Shown here piece after piece: positions 4,307 through 20,434 of a DNA stretch of 20,434 bases. The notes under the pieces were generated by a model that had not been told where the DNA came from, did not search any database, and was given only the letters and a program-made list of their open reading frames with translations. Source of the stretch: a virus; the IMG/VR virus record IMGVR_UViG_3300044699_000010, positions 1 to 20,434 of that record; one strand, written 5' to 3'. The position numbers and the translations under genes are program-made. Each line of letters opens with the position of its first letter. Positions within the stretch are counted from its first letter, which is position 1.

Positions 4307-4932
4307 AACAGCCTCTCAAAGGCCTTTTGCGCCTTGTCGAGCTTATCGACGAGGTTCATTTTGTGGAGCGCGGTCTCTTTCTTCTTCGGCGGTTCAACCT
4401 TTGGAGTCTGCTGGCCTGTATCGACCTTCTTGCCAGTGCCTGCCTTTGACACCTTTGGTGTACGCGTAAACTGATTCTGCACGATGCGGATTTGCTTGAG
4501 AGCGAGCGTGAAGTGCAGCCCATTGCTGTTCTGCGCAGAGCGCGGAACCGTCAGGCTCTGAATCACCATGCTCTCGTACACCCTGAGCGTGGTTACTACC
4601 GTGAGCAGCGCACCCGTAGAACGCAGAAAATCGAGCTGCGCATAACAGATGTTCGCTCTGTCCGGCATGATCTCGAGTGCGTTCTCTGCGGTGAAATCCA
4701 CTGTGCCGAGCCTGATCGCCCGTTGCTGCTGGACCGTGGTCAGCGGTGTATTCGATATGACGCATTCAAGCGCCAGCATATCGGGCTCAGGCCGCGCATG
4801 GTCGGAGACGTTTGCGCCTACCTCAACCGGATGGTCTGTGATAGCGCATGCCAGCGTGTGCGTCTCGAGCGGCATGGCGTCGAACTCAATCACCACCAAC
4901 TCGCTCTCAATCCTGGCGACGACAGCGGCCAT
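4303..4932 (-). CDS. Dit-like tail/baseplate protein
   Basis: This is a 209-residue protein lying directly after the tape measure. The N-terminal two thirds are beta-rich: VIEFDAMPLETHTLACAITD, then EVGANVSDHARPEPDMLALE, CVISNTPL and an ALLTVVTTLRVYESMVIQSL strand pair, followed by LHFTLALKQIRIVQ. 'VSDHARPEP' matches the H-x-R-x-EP-like motif of Dit-like phage tail proteins, which place the baseplate hub on the tail tube. Residues about 150-209 are lysine-rich and probably disordered (KVSKAGTGKKVDTG, EPPKKKETALHKM) and end in a short helix LVDKLDKAQKAFERLF. It starts at ATG 4932 in a TAATG overlap with the tape-measure stop. The Dit-like call is by motif and position; a LysM-type linker protein would be the main alternative. 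Confidence 0.72.
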   Translation of the reverse strand: MAAVVARIESELVVIEFDAMPLETHTLACAITDHPVEVGANVSDHARPEPDMLALECVISNTPLTTVQQQRAIRLGTVDFTAENALEIMPDRANICYAQLDFLRSTGALLTVVTTLRVYESMVIQSLTVPRSAQNSNGLHFTLALKQIRIVQNQFTRTPKVSKAGTGKKVDTGQQTPKVEPPKKKETALHKMNLVDKLDKAQKAFERLF

Positions 4933-6308
4933 TACTGGCCCCCGACGCTGGACATGGCATCGCTGTAATCGCTGTACAGCTTCTGCTGCACGGCGTCTGC
5001 TACCTCTTGCGCGGACTGACCAGGTGACTGGTAGATGTTAACGGTCGGCGCATGGTTAACCGTCTTATGCGATGATGGAGGAGCGCCAGCATTCAGGATT
5101 GGCGCACCCGTCGCATATGCTGCCGCGTTTCCTAGACCCTCACCGGCCCTAACGGCAAAGCCAATGGGCGTGTAGTTCATGAAGAAGCCCTTGACCTTGT
5201 CCGCCTTGTTCTCGAGGTTGACGAGGTTGAAAATCACCTTCGCGATGTACTCGTCCACCTTCTCGAGGACGTGGAGGAAGTCCCTGAACGCGGTGACAAA
5301 CCACGGCTCGCCCGCGTGAGCCGTGTTCATGAAGTAGTCAAGCTCTTTGAGGAAGTCACCGAATACCGATTCTTCACCGGCGAAGTAGCCGCGAATGTCG
5401 TCAAACAGCAGCAGCAGAACGGTCACCGCTGCAGCGATGGCAACGAATGGCGCCGCTGCCTTTATCCATGCGGCCATGGTTGCATAACCGGCCTTGATGG
5501 CTGCGAGGCTGACAACGTCGAACGAGATAGCAAGAGCTGCCAGGATTACTCCCACCCCAGCCCAGTTGGTTTTGATGAACTCCAGCAAGTTGCCGAGGAT
5601 GGCGCGCGCCTTCAGCGTCAGCTTTAGCAATGTTTCAAGTACTGGAAATCCATACTTACTTAGGAACTCATCCCAAAAGCGCTTGCTCCCCCGCTGCAGC
5701 CTGAGCATCAGCTCATGGATGCGCTTACCGCCCTTGATGGCCTCTTCATCGAGGACCACCGCCTCCTTGCGCAGCCCAGCGAGGCCCTCGCTGCCCTTAT
5801 TCAGCATCGGGACCATCTTCGCGCCTGCTCTGCCGAATAGGCTGATGGCTAGCGCGGTCTTCTCTATGCCGTCTGGCATCGCAGCGAAGCCGTCTGACAC
5901 CTCCATGATGAGGTCATCCGTATTGCGCAGCTTGCCGCTTGAATCCTTGAGGTGAACGCCGAGCTTACCGAACGCCTTCGCTTGCTCGTTCGTGCCATCC
6001 TTCGCAGATACCACCGTGCGCGCGAACCTCGAGAGGGAGACGTTGAGGCTGTCAGCGTCAACCCCGGATGCCTGCGCAGCGCCACGAAGCTCCTGCAGGG
6101 CTTTGGTGGTGAGCCCCATCGCCTGCGCACCGCGCTCGATGCCCACCGTCTCTTCTACGAGTTCAAAGACCTTGTGCGCGGCCTCTTCGCCGTACTCGAC
6201 AATCTTATTGAGGGCGAACTTGATACCTTCCGCAGCCAGCATGCCCTTGGCGAAGGCCTGGCTATCTACGTCTAACCCGAGTTTAACGAAGAGCTCCCTT
6301 AAAACCAC
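4932..6308 (-). CDS. Tail tape measure protein
   Basis: The 458-residue protein sits between the tail chaperones and baseplate genes, the fixed place of the tape measure. The N-terminal half is helical. Residues 113-172 (FGKLGVHLKDSSGKL, LFGRAGAKMVPMLNKG) carry a pattern common to tape-measure proteins, including the 'LFGRAG' turn. Residues about 250-302 are strongly hydrophobic (VGVILAALAISFDVVSLAAI, FVAIAAAVTVLLLLF), the membrane-active part that enters the host envelope. The C-terminus is Gly/Pro/Ala-rich then NIYQSPGQSAQEVADAV. The start is a GTG with an AGGAGG six bases upstream. It is short for the family; using about 1.5 angstrom per residue it predicts a tail near 69 nm. Nothing suggests a peptidase domain. 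Confidence 0.93.
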   Translation of the reverse strand: MVLRELFVKLGLDVDSQAFAKGMLAAEGIKFALNKIVEYGEEAAHKVFELVEETVGIERGAQAMGLTTKALQELRGAAQASGVDADSLNVSLSRFARTVVSAKDGTNEQAKAFGKLGVHLKDSSGKLRNTDDLIMEVSDGFAAMPDGIEKTALAISLFGRAGAKMVPMLNKGSEGLAGLRKEAVVLDEEAIKGGKRIHELMLRLQRGSKRFWDEFLSKYGFPVLETLLKLTLKARAILGNLLEFIKTNWAGVGVILAALAISFDVVSLAAIKAGYATMAAWIKAAAPFVAIAAAVTVLLLLFDDIRGYFAGEESVFGDFLKELDYFMNTAHAGEPWFVTAFRDFLHVLEKVDEYIAKVIFNLVNLENKADKVKGFFMNYTPIGFAVRAGEGLGNAAAYATGAPILNAGAPPSSHKTVNHAPTVNIYQSPGQSAQEVADAVQQKLYSDYSDAMSSVGGQ

Positions 6309-6314
6309 TGGCGC

Positions 6315-6320
6315 CCTCCT
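6315..6320 (-). promoter_or_regulatory. Ribosome binding site deciding the GTG start of the tape measure
   Basis: A perfect AGGAGG lies six bases upstream of GTG at 6308, and no ATG follows at usable spacing before residue 23. It lies within the 18-base gap after the stop of the frameshifted chaperone, so the tape measure is translated from its own strong site. Confidence 0.8.
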
Positions 6321-6326
6321 TTCGGG

Positions 6327-6931
6327 CTATTTGTTACGGTCTCGCTCCTGCCGCTTCTGCTGCTCTGCCTCTGCCTCTTCCATCGCGTCTAGCAGGTCAT
6401 TCGCATCTAGTACGTGCTGCCGTTTCAAAACCGTCTCCAGCTCCACTATGCTCGCCCACCCCTTCACAATGAGGCGCCAGCATGGCCAGGGGAGATGGTT
6501 GATTCCTTCGATTTTGACGCCTCCTTCCCCTCGGCTTTTACGCCGCCGCCGAGGGCCTTGAAAAAATCGGGGTAATTCACCTCGATGGCGAACCAAAGCA
6601 GCTTCCACGTATCCATCGTGCGGCCGCGCATATGCACATCGAACGGGTTGCCGCTCGGCGTGAACAGCGCCTTACCATCCATCGTGGCATCTGCCAGGAG
6701 CGTCTTTGCGATGGCCTCGAGCTCGTCGGCGCCAAGCTTGGCGAAGAAGCCCGCGATGGCTGGCGCGATGGCCGTTACGTCTCCGTCCAGCCCCTCCTTG
6801 AGCGCGCCGAACCCCTTCGCTACCTCGGTCAGCGCCGGCGCAATCCTCGCCTGTAAGGCAAAGCTGCGCATCGCCGGCAGCGGCGGCACAATGAAGCGAT
6901 TCTCACCGAGTAGCAGGCTATCGGCCGCCAT
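6327..6931 (-). CDS. Tail assembly chaperone, -1 frameshift fusion product (G-T type)
   Basis: Reading starts at ATG 6931 in the frame of the shorter chaperone, slips back one base at the T TTT TTC heptamer (6560-6566) and ends at TAG 6327, giving 201 residues: 124 shared, then 77 from the second frame. The second part reads QGPRRRRKSRGEGGV, then INHLPWPCWRLIVKGWAS, VELETVLKRQ and DANDLLDAMEEAEAEQQKR. The LxWPxW...G.AS..ELE...DLLDA pattern is what the T parts of phage tail chaperones show. The second frame has no plausible start of its own downstream of the overlap (no ATG in a good context before the WPCW motif), so fusion is the likeliest way to make it. In lambda the long form binds tape measure and tube subunits during tail assembly. 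The protein is absent from the mature tail in known systems. Confidence 0.72.
6464..6931 (-). CDS. Tail assembly chaperone, short form (G type)
   Basis: The 155-residue product starts with MAADSLLLGENRFIVPPLPA, directly abutting the tube stop (TAAATG), continues with a helical MRSFALQARIAPALTEVAKG segment, ELEAIAKTLLADAT, and the NPFDVHMRGRTMDTWKLLWF helix that small tail chaperones often carry near their end. It terminates in a low-complexity tail (GGGVKAEGKEASKSKES). Size, position between tube and tape measure, and the overlapping second frame match gpG-type chaperones, which coat the tape measure before the tube is polymerised. Most ribosomes should make this form; a fraction should shift to the long form. 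Confidence 0.8.
   Translation of the reverse strand: MAADSLLLGENRFIVPPLPAMRSFALQARIAPALTEVAKGFGALKEGLDGDVTAIAPAIAGFFAKLGADELEAIAKTLLADATMDGKALFTPSGNPFDVHMRGRTMDTWKLLWFAIEVNYPDFFKALGGGVKAEGKEASKSKESTISPGHAGASL
6528..6566 (-). promoter_or_regulatory. Programmed -1 frameshift signal: T TTT TTC heptamer plus hairpin
   Basis: In the zero frame the codons read GAT TTT TTC AAG, so the heptamer T TTT TTC is a canonical X XXY YYZ slip site. Four bases (AAGG) after it, CCCTCGGC (6555-6548) pairs perfectly with GCCGAGGG (6535-6528) across a 12-base loop, giving an 8-bp GC-rich stem. A slip here moves translation into the WPCW-containing second frame. Spacer, stem and position in a tail chaperone gene all match known -1 signals. 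Confidence 0.72.
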
Positions 6932-7351
6932 TTATGCCCCGTGGAAAACGTCCATCGCAGCGGTGTCAAACACCCATGCCACCGTCGACATTTCCTTACC
7001 GCGTTCGAAGTCGGGCGCCTTCTGAATCCATGCCGCCTCGGTATGCACCAGAGACGCGCCGCTAGACGTGTCCTTGATGATGAACGGGGCAACCACGCCT
7101 TGCCCGAGACGGTCAGCCACAGCCGCCGCAGAGAGCAGGTCATTGGTGCCGCTCGATTGCTTCAGCTCCACTGTAATCATTCCGCACCTATTCGCATTCA
7201 GCGTGCGCGCGACGGTGCCGTCAGCCCCTACCACCTTGGTATAGGCGTTTTCGTCGTAGGTGACCTTGATGATGGAGTCGGTAGAGAAACCACCGAACGT
7301 GATTCCACCCCAGATGACGATCACCTTCTGCGGATTGTATGTACCTTCCAT
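6932..7351 (-). CDS. Tail tube protein (DUF3277-like)
   Basis: The 139-residue protein has the tube-family layout: a strand-rich start (YNPQKVIVIWGGITFGGF), FSTDSIIKVTYDENAYTKVV, GADGTVARTLNANRCGMITV, ELKQSSGTNDLLSAAAVADR, and an APFIIKDTSSGASLVHTEAA strand followed by WIQKAPDFERGKEMSTVAWV and FDTAAMDVFHGA. The G-TVAR...N...G.ITV..K..S..ND.L and the closing E..TVAW.F patterns are typical of phage tubes in this DUF3277 group. It directly follows the sheath gene, as expected. Its ATG has a strong AGGAGGA nine bases upstream, overlapping the sheath TAG, consistent with the high copy number needed for a tube. Confidence 0.92.
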   Translation of the reverse strand: MEGTYNPQKVIVIWGGITFGGFSTDSIIKVTYDENAYTKVVGADGTVARTLNANRCGMITVELKQSSGTNDLLSAAAVADRLGQGVVAPFIIKDTSSGASLVHTEAAWIQKAPDFERGKEMSTVAWVFDTAAMDVFHGA

Positions 7352-7365
7352 GATCGTCTCTCCTC

Positions 7366-8736
7366 CTAGGTGCTCACGGCAGCGTTCACAAACATCTTGT
7401 CAATGGCGCCAGCAAGGCGGAATGAAGTATTCAGGTCCTTGAGTTCGCGTGCGGCTCGGTCAGCGTCTGCCGCATCCTCTGCAAGCGGAGCGGTGACCGT
7501 TGGCGCCGGGGTGTCTGCAATGAGTCCAGCCGCCTGCCAACGCTTATTGGCCGCTCTCACCACATTCTCGAGCGACGTGATCCCAGCGTTGGTGTACGGG
7601 ATCTTCTCGGCGTTCAGCTCCAGATCCACGAGGTCGGCGCCCACATCGGCCTTCCAGGCATCGAGGCCGCGCACCACGTCGATGTATTCCCCGCTCGATA
7701 CCCTGCCCTTGCCGCCGATGATGTTGCGACGACCGACCGTGTGGTAGAAGTTGGCCATCTTGGCGCCCATGTTCGTGATTTGCTGCGCCGTATAGGTCTG
7801 CGGAGTGACGCCGGCGAGCGTCTTGCCTCGCCAGTTGTCGCCACCTGGTGGGATGGCAAAGAATCGCGACATCTCAGCCGCATCGGGGAATTCCTGCAGC
7901 CGAGGATGGAAGAACGGCGCCGAGTAGCGGTAGGAGTTATCGAGCAGGTCTTCAAACACATCCTCCGCCGTGCTGATGCTGACCGTAGCGATGTAGCTAT
8001 CTGCGCTCGCAGGCACAAACAGCTTATGGTTCGTGTTTGCCCAAGCAGCCGCAGACGCAACGATGGCCGCAGACTTGTAGAGCAGGATCAGCCCATACCA
8101 GTCGTCGGAATCGGCGAGGATGGCGTCAAGGTCATCGTCCGTGTTGGTGCTGGGGTCCGCCGTCGTCTCTGACACGCTCATCGTGACGCAGCAGAGATTT
8201 GGAGACGTATTGTTGACCGGCTCAACCGCCCGCCATGTCTTCGTTGCGTCGGCGGTGATGGTGAGCACCTTAGAGCTCGAGCTGCCCGTTGCGGTTGCCG
8301 TGGCTCCAACGTCTGGCGACGCAAGCGCGTTGACCGCCGTGACGAGGGCATCGACGATCGCGTCATTCGATGCGCTGCCACCGCTTGTGACGGTAGCCGT
8401 CTGCGTCACGCCCAGGTACGTAATATTGATCGAGTAGTCAGTGGAATTGAGCACTGACTCAATCTTGACGACGTGAACTTGCGTAGGCGCCGTGTTCATG
8501 CGCCCAATCTTGAGATTACGCGAGGCGGGGTTGACCCCGAACCATTTTAGCGCCGCCTTGTATTCGGGGGTGGTAGTCGCGAAGTCTGCGGCCACGCCCG
8601 GGAGGTCGGTGTACGTCCGCACGTGCTCAGTCCACGTCGGCGAAGGCGTGGCAATCAGACCAGCGCTGACGCCCTCCCGCGACACACCTGGTGAGGACGC
8701 TGATACTGTGATGTCAATGAACTCGTCTAGACCCAT
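7366..8736 (-). CDS. Contractile tail sheath protein (DUF3383-like)
   Basis: The 456-residue protein matches the DUF3383 sheath family: an N-terminal DEFIDITVSASSPGVSREGV segment that links to neighbours, a beta domain around residues 95-165 (SINITYLGVTQTATVTSGGS, KVLTITADATKTWRAVE), then the alternating helix-strand core DDDLDAILADSDDWYGLILL, AAAWANTNHKLFVPASADS, FFHPRLQEFPDAAEMSRFFA, GKTLAGVTPQTYTAQQI and an RGLDAWKADVGADLVDLELN, IPYTNAGITSLENVVRAANK end. A sheath proves the contractile tail. The ATG at 8736 follows GGAGGTCACCTAGCC, giving an SD about ten bases upstream that overlaps the previous gene's end. The abundant TNTDD and AxxT segments are not unusual for this family. Confidence 0.95.
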   Translation of the reverse strand: MGLDEFIDITVSASSPGVSREGVSAGLIATPSPTWTEHVRTYTDLPGVAADFATTTPEYKAALKWFGVNPASRNLKIGRMNTAPTQVHVVKIESVLNSTDYSINITYLGVTQTATVTSGGSASNDAIVDALVTAVNALASPDVGATATATGSSSSKVLTITADATKTWRAVEPVNNTSPNLCCVTMSVSETTADPSTNTDDDLDAILADSDDWYGLILLYKSAAIVASAAAWANTNHKLFVPASADSYIATVSISTAEDVFEDLLDNSYRYSAPFFHPRLQEFPDAAEMSRFFAIPPGGDNWRGKTLAGVTPQTYTAQQITNMGAKMANFYHTVGRRNIIGGKGRVSSGEYIDVVRGLDAWKADVGADLVDLELNAEKIPYTNAGITSLENVVRAANKRWQAAGLIADTPAPTVTAPLAEDAADADRAARELKDLNTSFRLAGAIDKMFVNAAVST

Positions 8737-15366: not shown

Positions 15367-16897
15367 TCGGCTGGCTGCTCTGCCTTGGGCTTGCCGTTCG
15401 CTGCAGCCTTCGCCGCCGTATCAGCCGCCTTTTTCTTCGCGGCCTCCTCCTCGGGCGTGGTCTGCCCTGGCATTGCAACGGGCATGGTCTCCATTGCCGA
15501 GCGCGCGTCGGCCATCTTCTGCCGCGCGTCCACGTCGATGGTCATCGCATACGAGTACTCGTCACCGCCGAACCTCCGACTGCGCCACCTCCTCAGGCGT
15601 GAGCACGCCACGGTCGAGGTAGATGGCATCCGCCTGCGCCTGCGCGTAACGGCTCTCCGTCTCTTCCTTCTGGCTCGGTTCCCATAGCGGCCTGAACTGG
15701 ATAGACCACACATCGGGCTCTACGCCATTGGTCGGCGATGGTTCCTTCTCGGGGCCAATCGACCGCGCGTGAAAGATGAGCCTGACAATCTGGTCTAGCG
15801 CAGGACACAGCTTCGTGCGCTGCAGATGGCTGATCTGGTCGTAAAAGAACGCCCGATCGCTCTCACCCGTAGCGTTGAGCCACCCGGTGAGCGCCCCATG
15901 AGCAGCGTAATGGGCATATTGCAGCGGCGCCAGGCGCTCGTCTGCTTGTCCATCATGTCCTTCGATGCGGCCATGGGCGTCTCTTTGCGCTCAAACGTGT
16001 CTTCTTGTCGATGACCACCATGCGTAAAAACGCTGCGCACCATGTCCATTTGCGCGAGGATGTCCGTTACCTCTTTGTTCTTGTTTGCCGCTAGCAGCTT
16101 GGTCAGCCCCTCCATGCTGTAGACCGCCTGCGACATGTCCTGCATGAGCACAGCCGCCGATTCATAGGCCGTGCCCCAGTCTCCGCAATGCACCATGTAC
16201 ACGCTGCAGCACGAGCCTCCCATGAAGGCCGATGCGAATTAAACTGGGTCCGCGAAAAAGCGAATGCCGGGGAAATGATCAGCCGTGAGCGATGGACAAG
16301 GATGCTGCCATTCCAGCGCGTAGGTGCGTGGCGTGATGCGGTAGATCTCGGGCTCACCGAAGGTGCGGTAACGTAATATCCGCCTTGCCACGTTGCCGCT
16401 TCGCATTCGCTCGGCTCTAGCACCACGAAGTGCGAAAGGGACATCAGCGGTCGACTTCGAACGGCTGCGTTAGGTCTGACGAGCCGTCGTTGACGATAGG
16501 GAAGATGGCCGCGCCACAATACGCGCGCTCATACATAAGCGCAGTCTCTACCTCGTGCTCAACGCACAGGTCCTCGCACGTGGCAGCAACGTCCTCCTCA
16601 TGCCTGGCGCGTCTTCTCGGCGTCGTCCTCTTCGTCGCCCTGAATGCGCAGGTCCCAGCCAGCACGCAGCATCTCGCGGGGCACCAGCTCGATGATACGA
16701 GCTGCGGCATCGTTGCCGATCCAATAATTCTGAGCGCTTGCATCGTCCAGGATGTCAGCAAGGAAAGAAGCACCGCTGCGCTTATCCGGGACGTGTCCAA
16801 GCCCCGTTACAATGTTCATCCAGCCATCCGAGCGCGCGAGCGCTTTAGACTTCCTGCCTTCGGGATTGCCAGACTGCCCCTTGACCCATTTCGCCAT
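15363..16897 (-). CDS. Portal protein (DUF1073-like), broken by several frameshifts
   Basis: Six or more pieces in three frames line up in order. From ATG 16897: KWVKGQSGNPEGRK, SDGWMNIVTGLGHVPDKRSG, LDDASAQNYWIGNDAAARII, ELVPREMLRAGWDLRIQGDE; then HEEDVAATCEDLCVEHEVET, ALMYERAYCGAAIFPIVNDG; PLMSLSHFVVLEPSECEAAT; GEPEIYRITPR; YESAAVLMQDMSQAVYSMEG, LTKLLAANKNKEVTDILAQM, DMVRSVF, EDTFERKETP; LNATGESDRAFFYDQISH; WSIQFRPLWEPSQKEETESR, YAQAQADAIYLDRGVLTPEE, VAQSRFGGDEYSYAM, and an Ala/Lys-rich tail. These are the conserved blocks of DUF1073 portals; LNATGES..R and RPLW.P are diagnostic. About 510 residues are expected. A portal forms the dodecameric DNA port. The N-terminus carries an extra KGQSGNPEGRK motif before the portal domain. 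The stop overlaps the Mu F-like gene. Confidence 0.85.
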
Positions 16898-18195
16898 GGG
16901 CACAGCCTGCATTGGCCTGCATTTCGGCGTATTTGGTGCCTGCTACCAGCGTGATGCAGCTACGGCAGGGCCACGATGTCATTTTCGAGGAGTTATACGC
17001 ATGCGCCAGCGCGTCGACCTGGTCATCGTGGATATCTTCCTTCGTGCGGTGATAGCTCATCACCTCGTACATGAACTCATTGAGCCACGCGCCGCAGTGG
17101 GCACCCGCACGCGGCCATTGTTCCACGAGGCTGCTACGGGAGCGCACGCGTGAGCTTATCGCCCTGGGCGCTATCTCCTGGATGCGCAGTTAGGGTTGAT
17201 GGCGCGCAGGGCTCTGCGGCACGCTCTTAAACCGCCGAACGCCTCAACGAGATCTCGCGCGTTCCACCGTGCCTGTACCTCGATGAGCTTCTGCACCAGC
17301 TTGGGCACCTCGAGGCGCGCGCGCACCACCTCCAGAACGTCGCACACGCGCTCACAGCCCAGCCCCCGCCCACGCGACGCAAGCACGACAATGGCTGAAT
17401 AGTCCGCGCTGGTCCTTCTCGCTCGCTGCAGGGTCGCAGGCAAATGACCAAGCTGCGCGCCCGTGGCGTCCTGCTCTCGTAACGGGCTGGCTCTGAGAAT
17501 ATCGACCCGCCGCTGTGAAGAAATTGGGCTTCGTACTCTTGGCGATAGACCAGCGAATGGAACTCAGCGCGCGCGGCGTCTAGTTCGGCTTGAGGCACAA
17601 GCGGGTTTTGCGAGGTAGGCGCCTGCCACCGTGCCCAGCATCTGCCGTCTCAGCTGCGTTGAACAGGTCGTGAAACCAGTTGAGGCCCTTCGGCGTCGAG
17701 ATGATAGATTGGCCCCACCTTGGCGGTCGGACAGCGCAGGGCGTAGCACCTCGGTCCATGCCTCCTGCTGCATGAACGCGGCTTCATCGCACACGATGCC
17801 GTCGAGGCCGGCGCCTCGTAGGCCATCGGGTTGTCCGCTGACTTGACCGTGATAGAGCCGCCGCTGTAGCACGATGCGTAGCTCGGTCTCGCTCTTGTCT
17901 ATTCATGCATCGGCTAGCGCGCTCTTCAGCTCGCGCCAGATGAGCTTGGCAATGGGGAACGTGGGCGCTATCCACCAGATTGGTACGCCCTGTACGGCGC
18001 CTTTCCGCCCGCCATGCCCTAGACACATGCCACGGAGCCAAGCATCGTTTTGCCCAACCTACCGCTGCATATGACCTTGAACCTAGCGGGGTGGAGTAGG
18101 ATCGGCTGCTGATGCAGCTTCGGCGGGGTAGAATCACCCGCGCTAGTTGGCGGTTCATTGCGGGTTGCCCAATCGTTTGAGTAATACACTTCCAT
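16845..18195 (-). CDS. Terminase large subunit, broken by many frameshifts
   Basis: The fragments in order are: PPKLHQQPILLHPARFKVIC followed by SGRLGKTML (Walker A, ATPase P-loop), QGVPIWWIAPTFPIAKLIWR, ELKSALADA, GSITVKSADNP, DGLRGAGLDGIVCDEAAFMQ (Walker B, IVCDE), QEAWTEVLRPALSDRQG, ISTPKGLNWFHDLF (coupling motif), WQAPTSQNPLVPQAELDAAR, FHSLVYRQEYEAQFLHSGGS, then nuclease-domain parts ADYSAIVVLASRG, VLEVVRARLEVPKLVQKLIE, VEAFGGL, and DDQVDALAHAYNSSKM at the end. All the expected blocks of a phage TerL packaging motor (ATPase plus RNase H-like nuclease) are present in order. I count at least six frame changes. The start may be ATG 18195 (MEVYYSNDW) or ATG 18158, which makes an ATGA junction; the 3' end near 16845-16930 is also uncertain. 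Confidence 0.85.
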
Positions 18196-18450
18196 GCGCG
18201 TCGGTCCGCCGCCCTCGCGGATGCTCCACCGATTGGAATGGGCTTGCCCCATGCGCGGTCGAGAAGCGAATTGACGCCTTGACCCTCACAGCATCGGAGT
18301 CGCTGCGCTCTCCGTCGAGTTTCCTTGAGGATGTTCGATGCAGGCGAGGCGTTATGGGCCCTGCATGACCTCGATGACCTCGGATGGTATACTTGGGGGC
18401 GCCCACGATGGGTTGCCGCTCTCGCCTGGCTTGAATGGCCTGCCTACCAT
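18158..18450 (-). CDS. Small-terminase-like protein with SGNP motif (broken)
   Basis: From ATG 18450 one frame gives MVGRPFKPGESGNPSW, PSEVIEVMQGP, then stops; a second gives HNASPASN, and a third gives LLDRAWGKPIPIGG, followed by EGGGPTRMEVYYSNDW in a fourth step. The layout PGxSGNP near the N-terminus, an EVI..M helix, P-A-S, and a LLDRAWGKP helix end is that of DUF5681-type small phage proteins found beside terminases. I read these as parts of one gene of about 90-110 residues with at least three indels. A stop at 18155-18157 would give an ATGA overlap with TerL. Its place just upstream of TerL makes a DNA-recognition small subunit the best guess. Confidence 0.5.
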
Positions 18451-18532
18451 GCTGCGTCATTTGCTGTTACCAGGCTACTCCTCATCGTCATCGTCTGCAT
18501 TTGAGCTGCTGCCGCCTGTGGCTATGAACAGG

Positions 18533-18791
18533 TCATCCAATACGTGATTGCACGTTCATTGTCCATATAAGCGCTTTGCAGAGGGTGCATCGCATCAGCT
18601 GGCGTTCTGGTTTTTTGTACTTGCAGGCGTCTCGGCGGTGGACCTGGTTGGTGGCAGATGGCACAGCCGTATGCGCGGTTTTTTGACAATGCGGGGATCA
18701 TCATTTGGTGAATTCTGAAATTCTGAAGAGTCGTCTAATTCTAGTGTCATTACTTGGGGGGTTGACACGAAATCGCAGCAGCTGCACCCAT
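18533..18791 (-). CDS. Small cysteine-rich (zinc-ribbon-like) protein, frameshifted
   Basis: ATG 18791 has GAGAGGAG six bases upstream, one of the best ribosome sites in the window. The frame reads MGAAAAISCQPPK and stops at a CCCCCC tract. One extra C would join it to a frame with LELDDSSEFQNSPNDDPRIV; then changes in AAAAAA and CC lead to NRAYGCAICHQ and VHRRDACKYKKPERQLMRCT, LCKALIWTMNVQSRIG, ending at TGA 18533 (85 codons). C-x2-C and later C-x2-C pairs suggest a zinc site. An alternative without the first correction is a 13-codon leader coupled by TAATG to a second start at 18750. No family is recognised. Confidence 0.5.
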
Positions 18792-18797
18792 AGGGAT

Positions 18798-18805
18798 CTC
18801 CTCTC
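18798..18805 (-). promoter_or_regulatory. Ribosome binding site of the cysteine-rich protein
   Basis: GAGAGGAG ends six bases before ATG 18791. It supports that start over a downstream ATG at 18750, which has no such site. Confidence 0.7.
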
Positions 18806-18826
18806 TTAATTCGGTTCGTCTACGAC

Positions 18827-19291
18827 TCACCTAAGAGCACCGTGGTAGTGCATGGCAACGTAAGGGCCATGAGATGGGTCAAAAGGGGGGCGGTCATCGT
18901 TTCGGCCATAGAATCGCACGTTGGTTGGCTTCCTTTTCCCTTTGGCGGAGCACGCCTTAGAACAAAACCGCTGTGCACGGTGATAGGTTGACCACTGTTT
19001 TTTGCAGACCTCGCACTGCTTTAGCGCAGGCGGATTACTTCTTCCTTTGTCGCTCTGCTTTCCGGTTTCGCTGCAGGCGCATGCGCGTGAGGCAATAAAG
19101 CAGTTTGTCCTTTGCCGTCGTTGTAGCGCTTGTAATGCCTTGTAAATGTCTTTCCACATTTTGACAGATTCAGTAGCCAATGCCTTCTCAGAGGATCGCC
19201 AGTCCTTGCTTGCAGGTCACAGGAACCGCCTACGCAGCTCATACGCGATAACTCGCAGCTCGCGGCGCCAGCATCGCAGTAGGCGCATCAT
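18827..19291 (-). CDS. Hypothetical protein with C-terminal zinc-finger-like motif
   Basis: ATG 19291 lies eleven bases after GGAGG (19303-19307). The frame gives MMRLLRCWRRELRVIAYELR and is interrupted by a TGA at 19217-19219, then continues in the same frame with PASKDWRSSEKALATESVKM and WKDIYKALQALQRRQRT to TGA 18827. The end carries LKQCEVCKKQWSTYHRAQRF followed by CSKACSAKGKRKP: C-x2-C, then FCSxxC, the layout of a small zinc ribbon. Around 19050-19110 another frame (KDKLLYCLTRMRLQRNRKAE) looks at least as protein-like, so two compensating indels may surround the stop. Function unknown; a DNA-binding accessory in the early region is possible. Confidence 0.45.
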
Positions 19292-19299
19292 ATGTAGCG

Positions 19300-19716
19300 T
19301 TACCTCCATGTGCCGCCGTCGGGCTTGCACTTTTCGCAACCTTCGCCGTGTCGCAGGGGATGAACGTTCTACGTGCCGACCTTCACGTTGGCGCTATCGG
19401 CTCCGCCGTGCGCATTCAACGAATGCGACCATCTTATTCAGGCAGGAACGCCAAGCTGTCGCTGCCATGGCGAATCACCCCGCACGCCGGCGACGAGCGC
19501 GCGAAATGACCTATCCTGCGAAGCCCCCCGAGTGCGTGGAACCGTAGCCGGATATACACCAGTAGGCGCATCAATCCGCCGCCACGTGCCCATACGATGA
19601 GCGCGACCCTGGTGCCGACGGCGGAATAGCTACGCAAGTCGTCCTCGGTGAGCCACCTTGCGTGACGTGATTCGCGTTTCGTCGAGCGGGTTGCGGTACG
19701 GGCGTAGGCGCGTCAC
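19300..19716 (-). CDS. Hypothetical protein(s), fragmentary
   Basis: GTG 19716, four bases after the helicase stop, opens [19 protein letters not shown]; a frame change then gives [18 protein letters not shown], and at the far end [15 protein letters not shown] stops at TAA 19300, just before the next gene's ribosome site. Between these, no frame stays open convincingly (pieces such as [12 protein letters not shown] at 19434-19470). I read the stretch as one or two small genes between helicase and the next gene, damaged by indels. The C-x2-C near the end hints at metal binding. No function is recognised. Confidence 0.35.
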
Positions 19717-19720
19717 GGGC

Positions 19721-20434
19721 TCACCCGGTCGCTGTAGTCGCCGTGGTCGCGCCCGTTGCCGTTCGTGTGCGCACAGGGTTCGCAAACGAGGTAGTTGCCC
19801 CGTTCCATGCGAGCTTGACCGTGCCTGTGGGCCGTTGCGGTGCTTGCGCAGAATCAGCTCGGCGATGCCCTTGTCCTCGGTGTCCGGGTCGTATTCTTCA
19901 TCGCGGTAGAGCATCGCCACCACATCGGCGTCTTGCTCAAGGTCGCCGGCTTCGCGCAGGTCAGACAGCAGGGGGCGCTTGTCGTCGCGCTTCATCGCAA
20001 ACGCGGTTGAGCTGCGCGAGCGCCAGCACGGGGATGTGAAGCTCGCGAGCCATGTTCTTGAGCCCGCGGGTGACCTCGCCCAGCTGCTGCTGGGCGAGTC
20101 TCTGCCTTTCCGCCTGCACGAGCTGCACGTAATCAACCACGATGAGGCCGCCGCGATTGACCTCCTTCGTGGCCACATGAGGGCCTTAGCGCGGATGGCG
20201 TTGATGGTCGGCGAGATGGATTCATCCAGCCACGATGCGCTCCTCTGCGCGCGAGCGAGGGAGCGATGGCAGCTACTGGCGCCATTTCTCGGGGCTCTTG
20301 ATGCAGCCTCGCCGAAGGTCGCTAGGTCGGCGCCCGCTTCGGCTGCGAGGATGCGTTTCCCGAGTTGCTGGTTTGCCATCTCGAGGGGAACACCAGCACG
20401 GGATAATTCGCGGCCACGTGCTTGCCGATGTTCA
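19721..20434 (-). CDS. Replicative DNA helicase, DnaB-like, C-terminal part (frameshifted, 5' end outside)
   Basis: At the right edge [15 protein letters not shown] leads, after a lost C near 20381, to [20 protein letters not shown]. Later pieces are [31 protein letters not shown] (Walker B, IVVDYVQL), [70 protein letters not shown] and [13 protein letters not shown]. Adding one C near 19832 gives [10 protein letters not shown] and a Thr/Ala-rich end stopping at TGA 19721. [18 protein letters not shown] is the DnaB H4 signature. The Walker A part lies just beyond the window. It unwinds DNA at the phage fork. It reads as a functional family member broken by about five indels. Confidence 0.88.

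Follow-up and report, generated by a model that had tools for sequence, protein, structure and literature searches.

In the window, which is the whole 20,434-nucleotide stretch of viral DNA analyzed here (IMG/VR record IMGVR_UViG_3300044699_000010), the genes of a tail module lie on the minus strand. These are the gene for the tail sheath (DUF3383; 7366..8736; PHROG 205, 1e-78; PF11863), that for a tail tube-like protein of the KPP10_Orf10 family (6932..7351; Pfam PF11681; PHROG 280), a tail assembly chaperone gene whose short product, TAC-N, has 155 aa (6464..6931), and the gene for the tail tape-measure protein (4932..6308; PHROG tape measure families; Pfam PF10145), which starts with GTG and has its own Shine-Dalgarno sequence, AAAGGAGG (6315..6322, minus strand). 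The chaperone matches Phage_TAC_15 (Pfam PF21822, E=3e-19; PHROG 1613, 7e-14) with 70.1 bits, the curated cut-off being 22, and its gene is flanked by the tube/sheath genes and the tape-measure gene, as is demanded of a G/GT-type chaperone. At the far end of the window (15500-20379), the head genes are split into fragments that lie in more than one frame (two of the portal gene, 15795-16223 and 16598-16912; two of the terminase gene, 16845-17147 and 17564-17872; and one of a helicase gene, 19630-20379), which likely reflects assembly indel errors; the tail module is clean.

Within the chaperone gene, the slippery heptamer T_TTT_TTC (6560..6566, minus strand) is the sole sequence of the form X_XXY_YYZ. 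The original prediction had placed it in the correct zero frame, and the minus strand indeed reads GAT TTT TTC AAG (D F F K). In the register GA(T TTT TTC), which encodes D F F, each of the two tRNAs is able to pair again after moving back by one base. The sequence TTTTTTC occurs once in the window when both strands are counted (chance expectation, 0.66), and the window's own codon usage predicts that about 3% of FF pairs would be encoded as T_TTT_TTC; none of the seven other FF pairs in the window's structural genes forms this heptamer. A Shine-Dalgarno-like sequence, GAGGTG (6578..6583, minus strand), lies 11 nt before the heptamer and is a candidate extra stimulator. From the end of its GAGG core to the heptamer is 13 nt, and five distant relatives (L174, L088, L014, L017 and L072) have a GAGG core at the same distance before the slip site. 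In the window GAGGTG encodes Glu-Val, and its presence may be a coincidence.

On the other side of the heptamer, the 4-nt spacer AAGG (6556..6559) leads into a hairpin with a 5' arm CCCTCGGC (6548..6555), a 12-nt loop (6536..6547) and a 3' arm GCCGAGGG (6528..6535), all on the minus strand and all as had been claimed (four bases past the heptamer, with a 12-base loop). The arms form a perfect 8-bp stem, to which comparable stems are found in relatives. The RNA fold that had been proposed as a check gave a divided answer: the minimum-energy structure includes the stem, but the whole 86-nt fold is not more stable than shuffled sequences (z = 0.10), a whole-region score that says little here, as the region is GC-rich and the stem makes up only a minor portion of it. 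Of 1000 codon shuffles, 11 gave an equally strong stem right after the site, and 29 of 2039 stretches taken from the window did likewise. The heptamer is conspicuous by its position and codon choice; the stem is only moderately so. The 4 nt between the heptamer and the perfect 8-bp stem compare with the 5-8 nt that usually separate a slip site from a stimulatory stem (PMC4066793).

Translation across a -1 slip at the heptamer joins 124 residues of the zero frame to a 77-aa C-terminal domain (6327..6560, minus strand) and yields the 201 residues that had been predicted for the long form, TAC-NC. Its stop codon, TAG (6327-6329), ends 18 nt before the start of the tape-measure gene. A trans-frame profile that combined the -1 domains in seven relatives, with the window left out, matched the window's -1 frame with 52.9 bits (a small search, E=9e-18) and found nothing above noise in the window's other frames, so that the chaperone-like region claimed for the -1 frame is upheld. 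Most of these domains share the pattern W..(W/Y/H)R ... (D/E)A(N/H)..LD, and in the 45 codons that follow the N stop of the window the GC contents of the three codon positions in the -1 frame are 0.73/0.29/0.69, which is a coding-like pattern. The further claim that this frame lacks a start of its own stands in part: a GTG in the -1 frame overlaps the N stop (TTGTGA, 6464-6469), but no ribosome-binding site precedes it, and the conserved domain begins upstream of this sole GTG able to re-initiate at the N stop. The -1 ORF overlaps the chaperone gene, lacks its own start signal and is conserved in relatives. In this phage, the annotation of the pair can thereby be fixed as a single gene that yields two products rather than as two separate genes.

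Direct searches of viral contigs with the chaperone, tube and sheath proteins returned no chaperone relative and one sheath relative, and the window's chaperone had only weak matches among phages; the window is without a close relative in the collections searched. Searches with the tube and sheath proteins did reveal about 1000 phage records with the same module. In eight known phages (ctsHD2, ctfzr933, FP_Brigit, SSE121, JES2013, Michonne, Sf13 and Hena2) the chaperone gene contains T_TTT_TTN once in the zero frame, located at the homologous N(Y/F)xxF(F/L) codons, and has a -1 frame that reaches the tape-measure gene or its vicinity (in Sf13, the end of the fetched stretch), while KPP10, PaoP5, VCM and P577 have GTT_TTT at the homologous site instead of TTT_TTC. 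Michonne is annotated with 'ribosomal slippage' and Magia with a 'frameshift product'. Consistent with these observations, the -1 frameshift was reported to be conserved in 56 distinct Vandenendeviridae alleles and a GTTTTT motif to be common to 231 Andersonviridae (PMC12846349, 2025).

Protein-level scans of viral contigs with the Brigit group led to 73 loci, and the chaperone of L073 added four more. A scan of genome contigs with the Brigit chaperone found none, and alignments of all the distant relatives were too variable for scanning. All 53 distinct sites from the viral contigs lie at the conserved NYxxFF motif and keep the slippery motif, as TTTTTTC in 52 and TTTTTTT in one. The -1 extension is 71-101 codons long in all of them, compared with 2-58 codons for the +1 extension, and other FF pairs of the same loci are encoded as T_TTT_TTY in 4 of 66 cases. 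A scan of bare DNA for the heptamer plus stem found 79 stretches, 14 of which encode chaperone homologues by profile; hits of this kind are biased toward having the stem, so only the loci retrieved by protein search were used to assess how well the stem is conserved. The comparison with related phages that the original prediction had called for thus favored its two elements unequally: the heptamer is conserved in 53 of 53, while the exact stem is not universal.

Stems after the slip site were counted as strong when no more than 5 of 100 codon shuffles matched them; 25 of the 53 relatives have such a stem, and at least two pairing registers occur. In the first group, columns 14-22 pair with columns 35-43, 82% of the cells are paired, the changes include GC to CG and GC to AU, and covariation exceeds that of 500/500 shuffles. 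The second group uses a displaced partner, with columns 17-24 pairing with 38-45; its changes include GC to AU and GU to CG, and its covariation exceeds that of 480/500 shuffles. It should be noted that a common register was part of the basis for forming the groups, and the shuffles therefore overstate the covariation somewhat. In the remaining relatives the stem is absent or different, and the fold is different or weak.

These observations bear on whether the hairpin has any part in frameshifting. It could be an idle by-product of the coded residues L-G...A-E beside a real frameshift: the arms encode LG and AE, which recur in relatives, many relatives are without this stem, and lambda-type shifts in some tailed phages have been described as seeming to have no stimulators (PMC5009743). 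We consider this unlikely, although it is the most serious of the alternatives, given that compensatory changes are found in two registers, that about half of the relatives have strong stems and that the 4-nt spacing is near the usual 5-8 nt (PMC4066793). The comparative sequence evidence suggests that the hairpin is probably a stimulator, and we prefer to regard it as a real one that is free to drift rather than as an invariant element. By extension, it is possible, at somewhat less than even odds, that the widespread Phage_TAC_15 lineage carries an evolving multi-part -1 signal made up of T_TTT_TTC, a hairpin and sometimes a Shine-Dalgarno-like sequence, with compensatory change preserving the stem even as its pairing register has moved.

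The heptamer, its register and the conserved -1 coding domain, all retained across relatives, support the programmed -1 frameshift originally proposed for the tail chaperone, and we infer that one gene almost certainly gives rise to two chaperones by ribosomal slippage. Most ribosomes would read 6464-6931 to its own stop and produce the 155-aa TAC-N. Held up at the hairpin, which starts 4 nt past the heptamer, a minority would slip on T_TTT_TTC from TTT TTC to TTT TTT and then translate the -1 frame as far as 6327, producing the 201-aa TAC-NC. By analogy with the binding roles of the two lambda chaperone forms, gpG and gpGT (PMC5009743), the shared N part would bind the tape-measure protein and the rarer C domain would recruit tube subunits, so that the ratio of the two forms would matter for tail assembly.

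Slippage of the ribosome at T_TTT_TTC is much more likely than any of the other routes to a shifted product. The polymerase, rather than the ribosome, might slip on the T run and give mRNAs with an altered frame, as runs of identical bases can cause and as the T6 run of the heptamer could invite. Six T followed by a C is, however, short for polymerase slippage; moreover, the relatives keep the codon register for a tandem slip and have downstream stems with compensatory change, and the KPP10-type relatives carry GTTTTT, which together make this explanation very improbable. Slightly less probable again is that ribosomes re-initiate at the GTG overlapping the N stop and so make the C domain as a separate protein. 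That GTG is in the right frame, and a mechanism other than frameshifting has been proposed for the chaperone forms of T4-like phages (Vladimirov 2022, as cited in PMC12846349), but the missing ribosome-binding site, the position of the domain's conserved W..WR motif upstream of the GTG and the conservation of the -1 frame in relatives back to the heptamer all argue against it. Finally, a sequencing or assembly indel in the T6 run of a genome that truly has a single continuous frame is suggested by the homopolymer at the slip site and by the broken portal and terminase frames of the same record, a worry about homopolymer errors that holds for the window's far end (15.5-20 kb) and not for the slip site, since the same arrangement and heptamer in 53/53 distinct relatives on separate contigs and in isolated phages, together with the annotated frameshifts of Michonne and Magia, in effect rule it out.

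Compared with known systems, the window most resembles the tail modules of Pakpunavirus Adele and other Vandenendeviridae and of Andersonviridae (e.g., Mooglevirus Michonne), which have the same order of sheath, tube, chaperone and tape measure, a related chaperone, and a poly-T slip site at the same N(Y/F)xxFF/VF codons with a -1 frame open to the tape measure. The window's chaperone, however, shares only about 17-22% identity with the members that were aligned, the window has one tube gene where the Vandenendeviridae have three, and it differs from both families in having a clear 8-bp stem after the slip site. Another close system is Faecalibacterium phage FP_Brigit with a large set of related viral contigs, in which, as in the window, a CTCGGC...GCCGAG stem closing a 12-nt loop comes after T_TTT_TTC; the stem of this group has 9-10 bp, and the FP_Brigit chaperone is about 31% identical to that of the window. 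Unlike in our reading of the window, the annotation of FP_Brigit gives part of the trans-frame domain as a hypothetical protein of its own (L005, 4013-4165), and in FP_Brigit-like relatives the domain is filed in this way under PHROG 31474, a stand-alone family of 50 aa.

TTTTTTC followed by a CTCGGC...GCCGAG stem was also encountered in a second, unrelated gene family (L022, L026, L036, L058, L062, L068, L084, L086, L090, L091 and L096). There the zero frame ends in ...STRANFF(G/V)ETSAS*, and the -1 extension, mostly 112-115 aa long, has weak similarity to a tail chaperonin family; judged from these sequences, it looks like another tail-chaperone frameshift. In Rheinheimera phage Barba35A, the chaperone gene has a lambda-like G_GGA_AAG heptamer (L011, 4425-4430), and a DNA-binding gene on the opposite strand is inserted between chaperone and tape measure.

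In lambda itself, the G/GT heptamer is G_GGA_AAG. Lambda G/GT has been described as seeming to be without stimulatory signals (PMC5009743), whereas the window has a stem. Frameshifts of this kind have already been described widely in tailed phages, and in this tail module specifically; the window is a divergent addition to them. What it adds is modest, i.e., a stem that shows compensatory change in many relatives, and the set of stems offers natural variants for testing how hairpins tune bacterial frameshifting.
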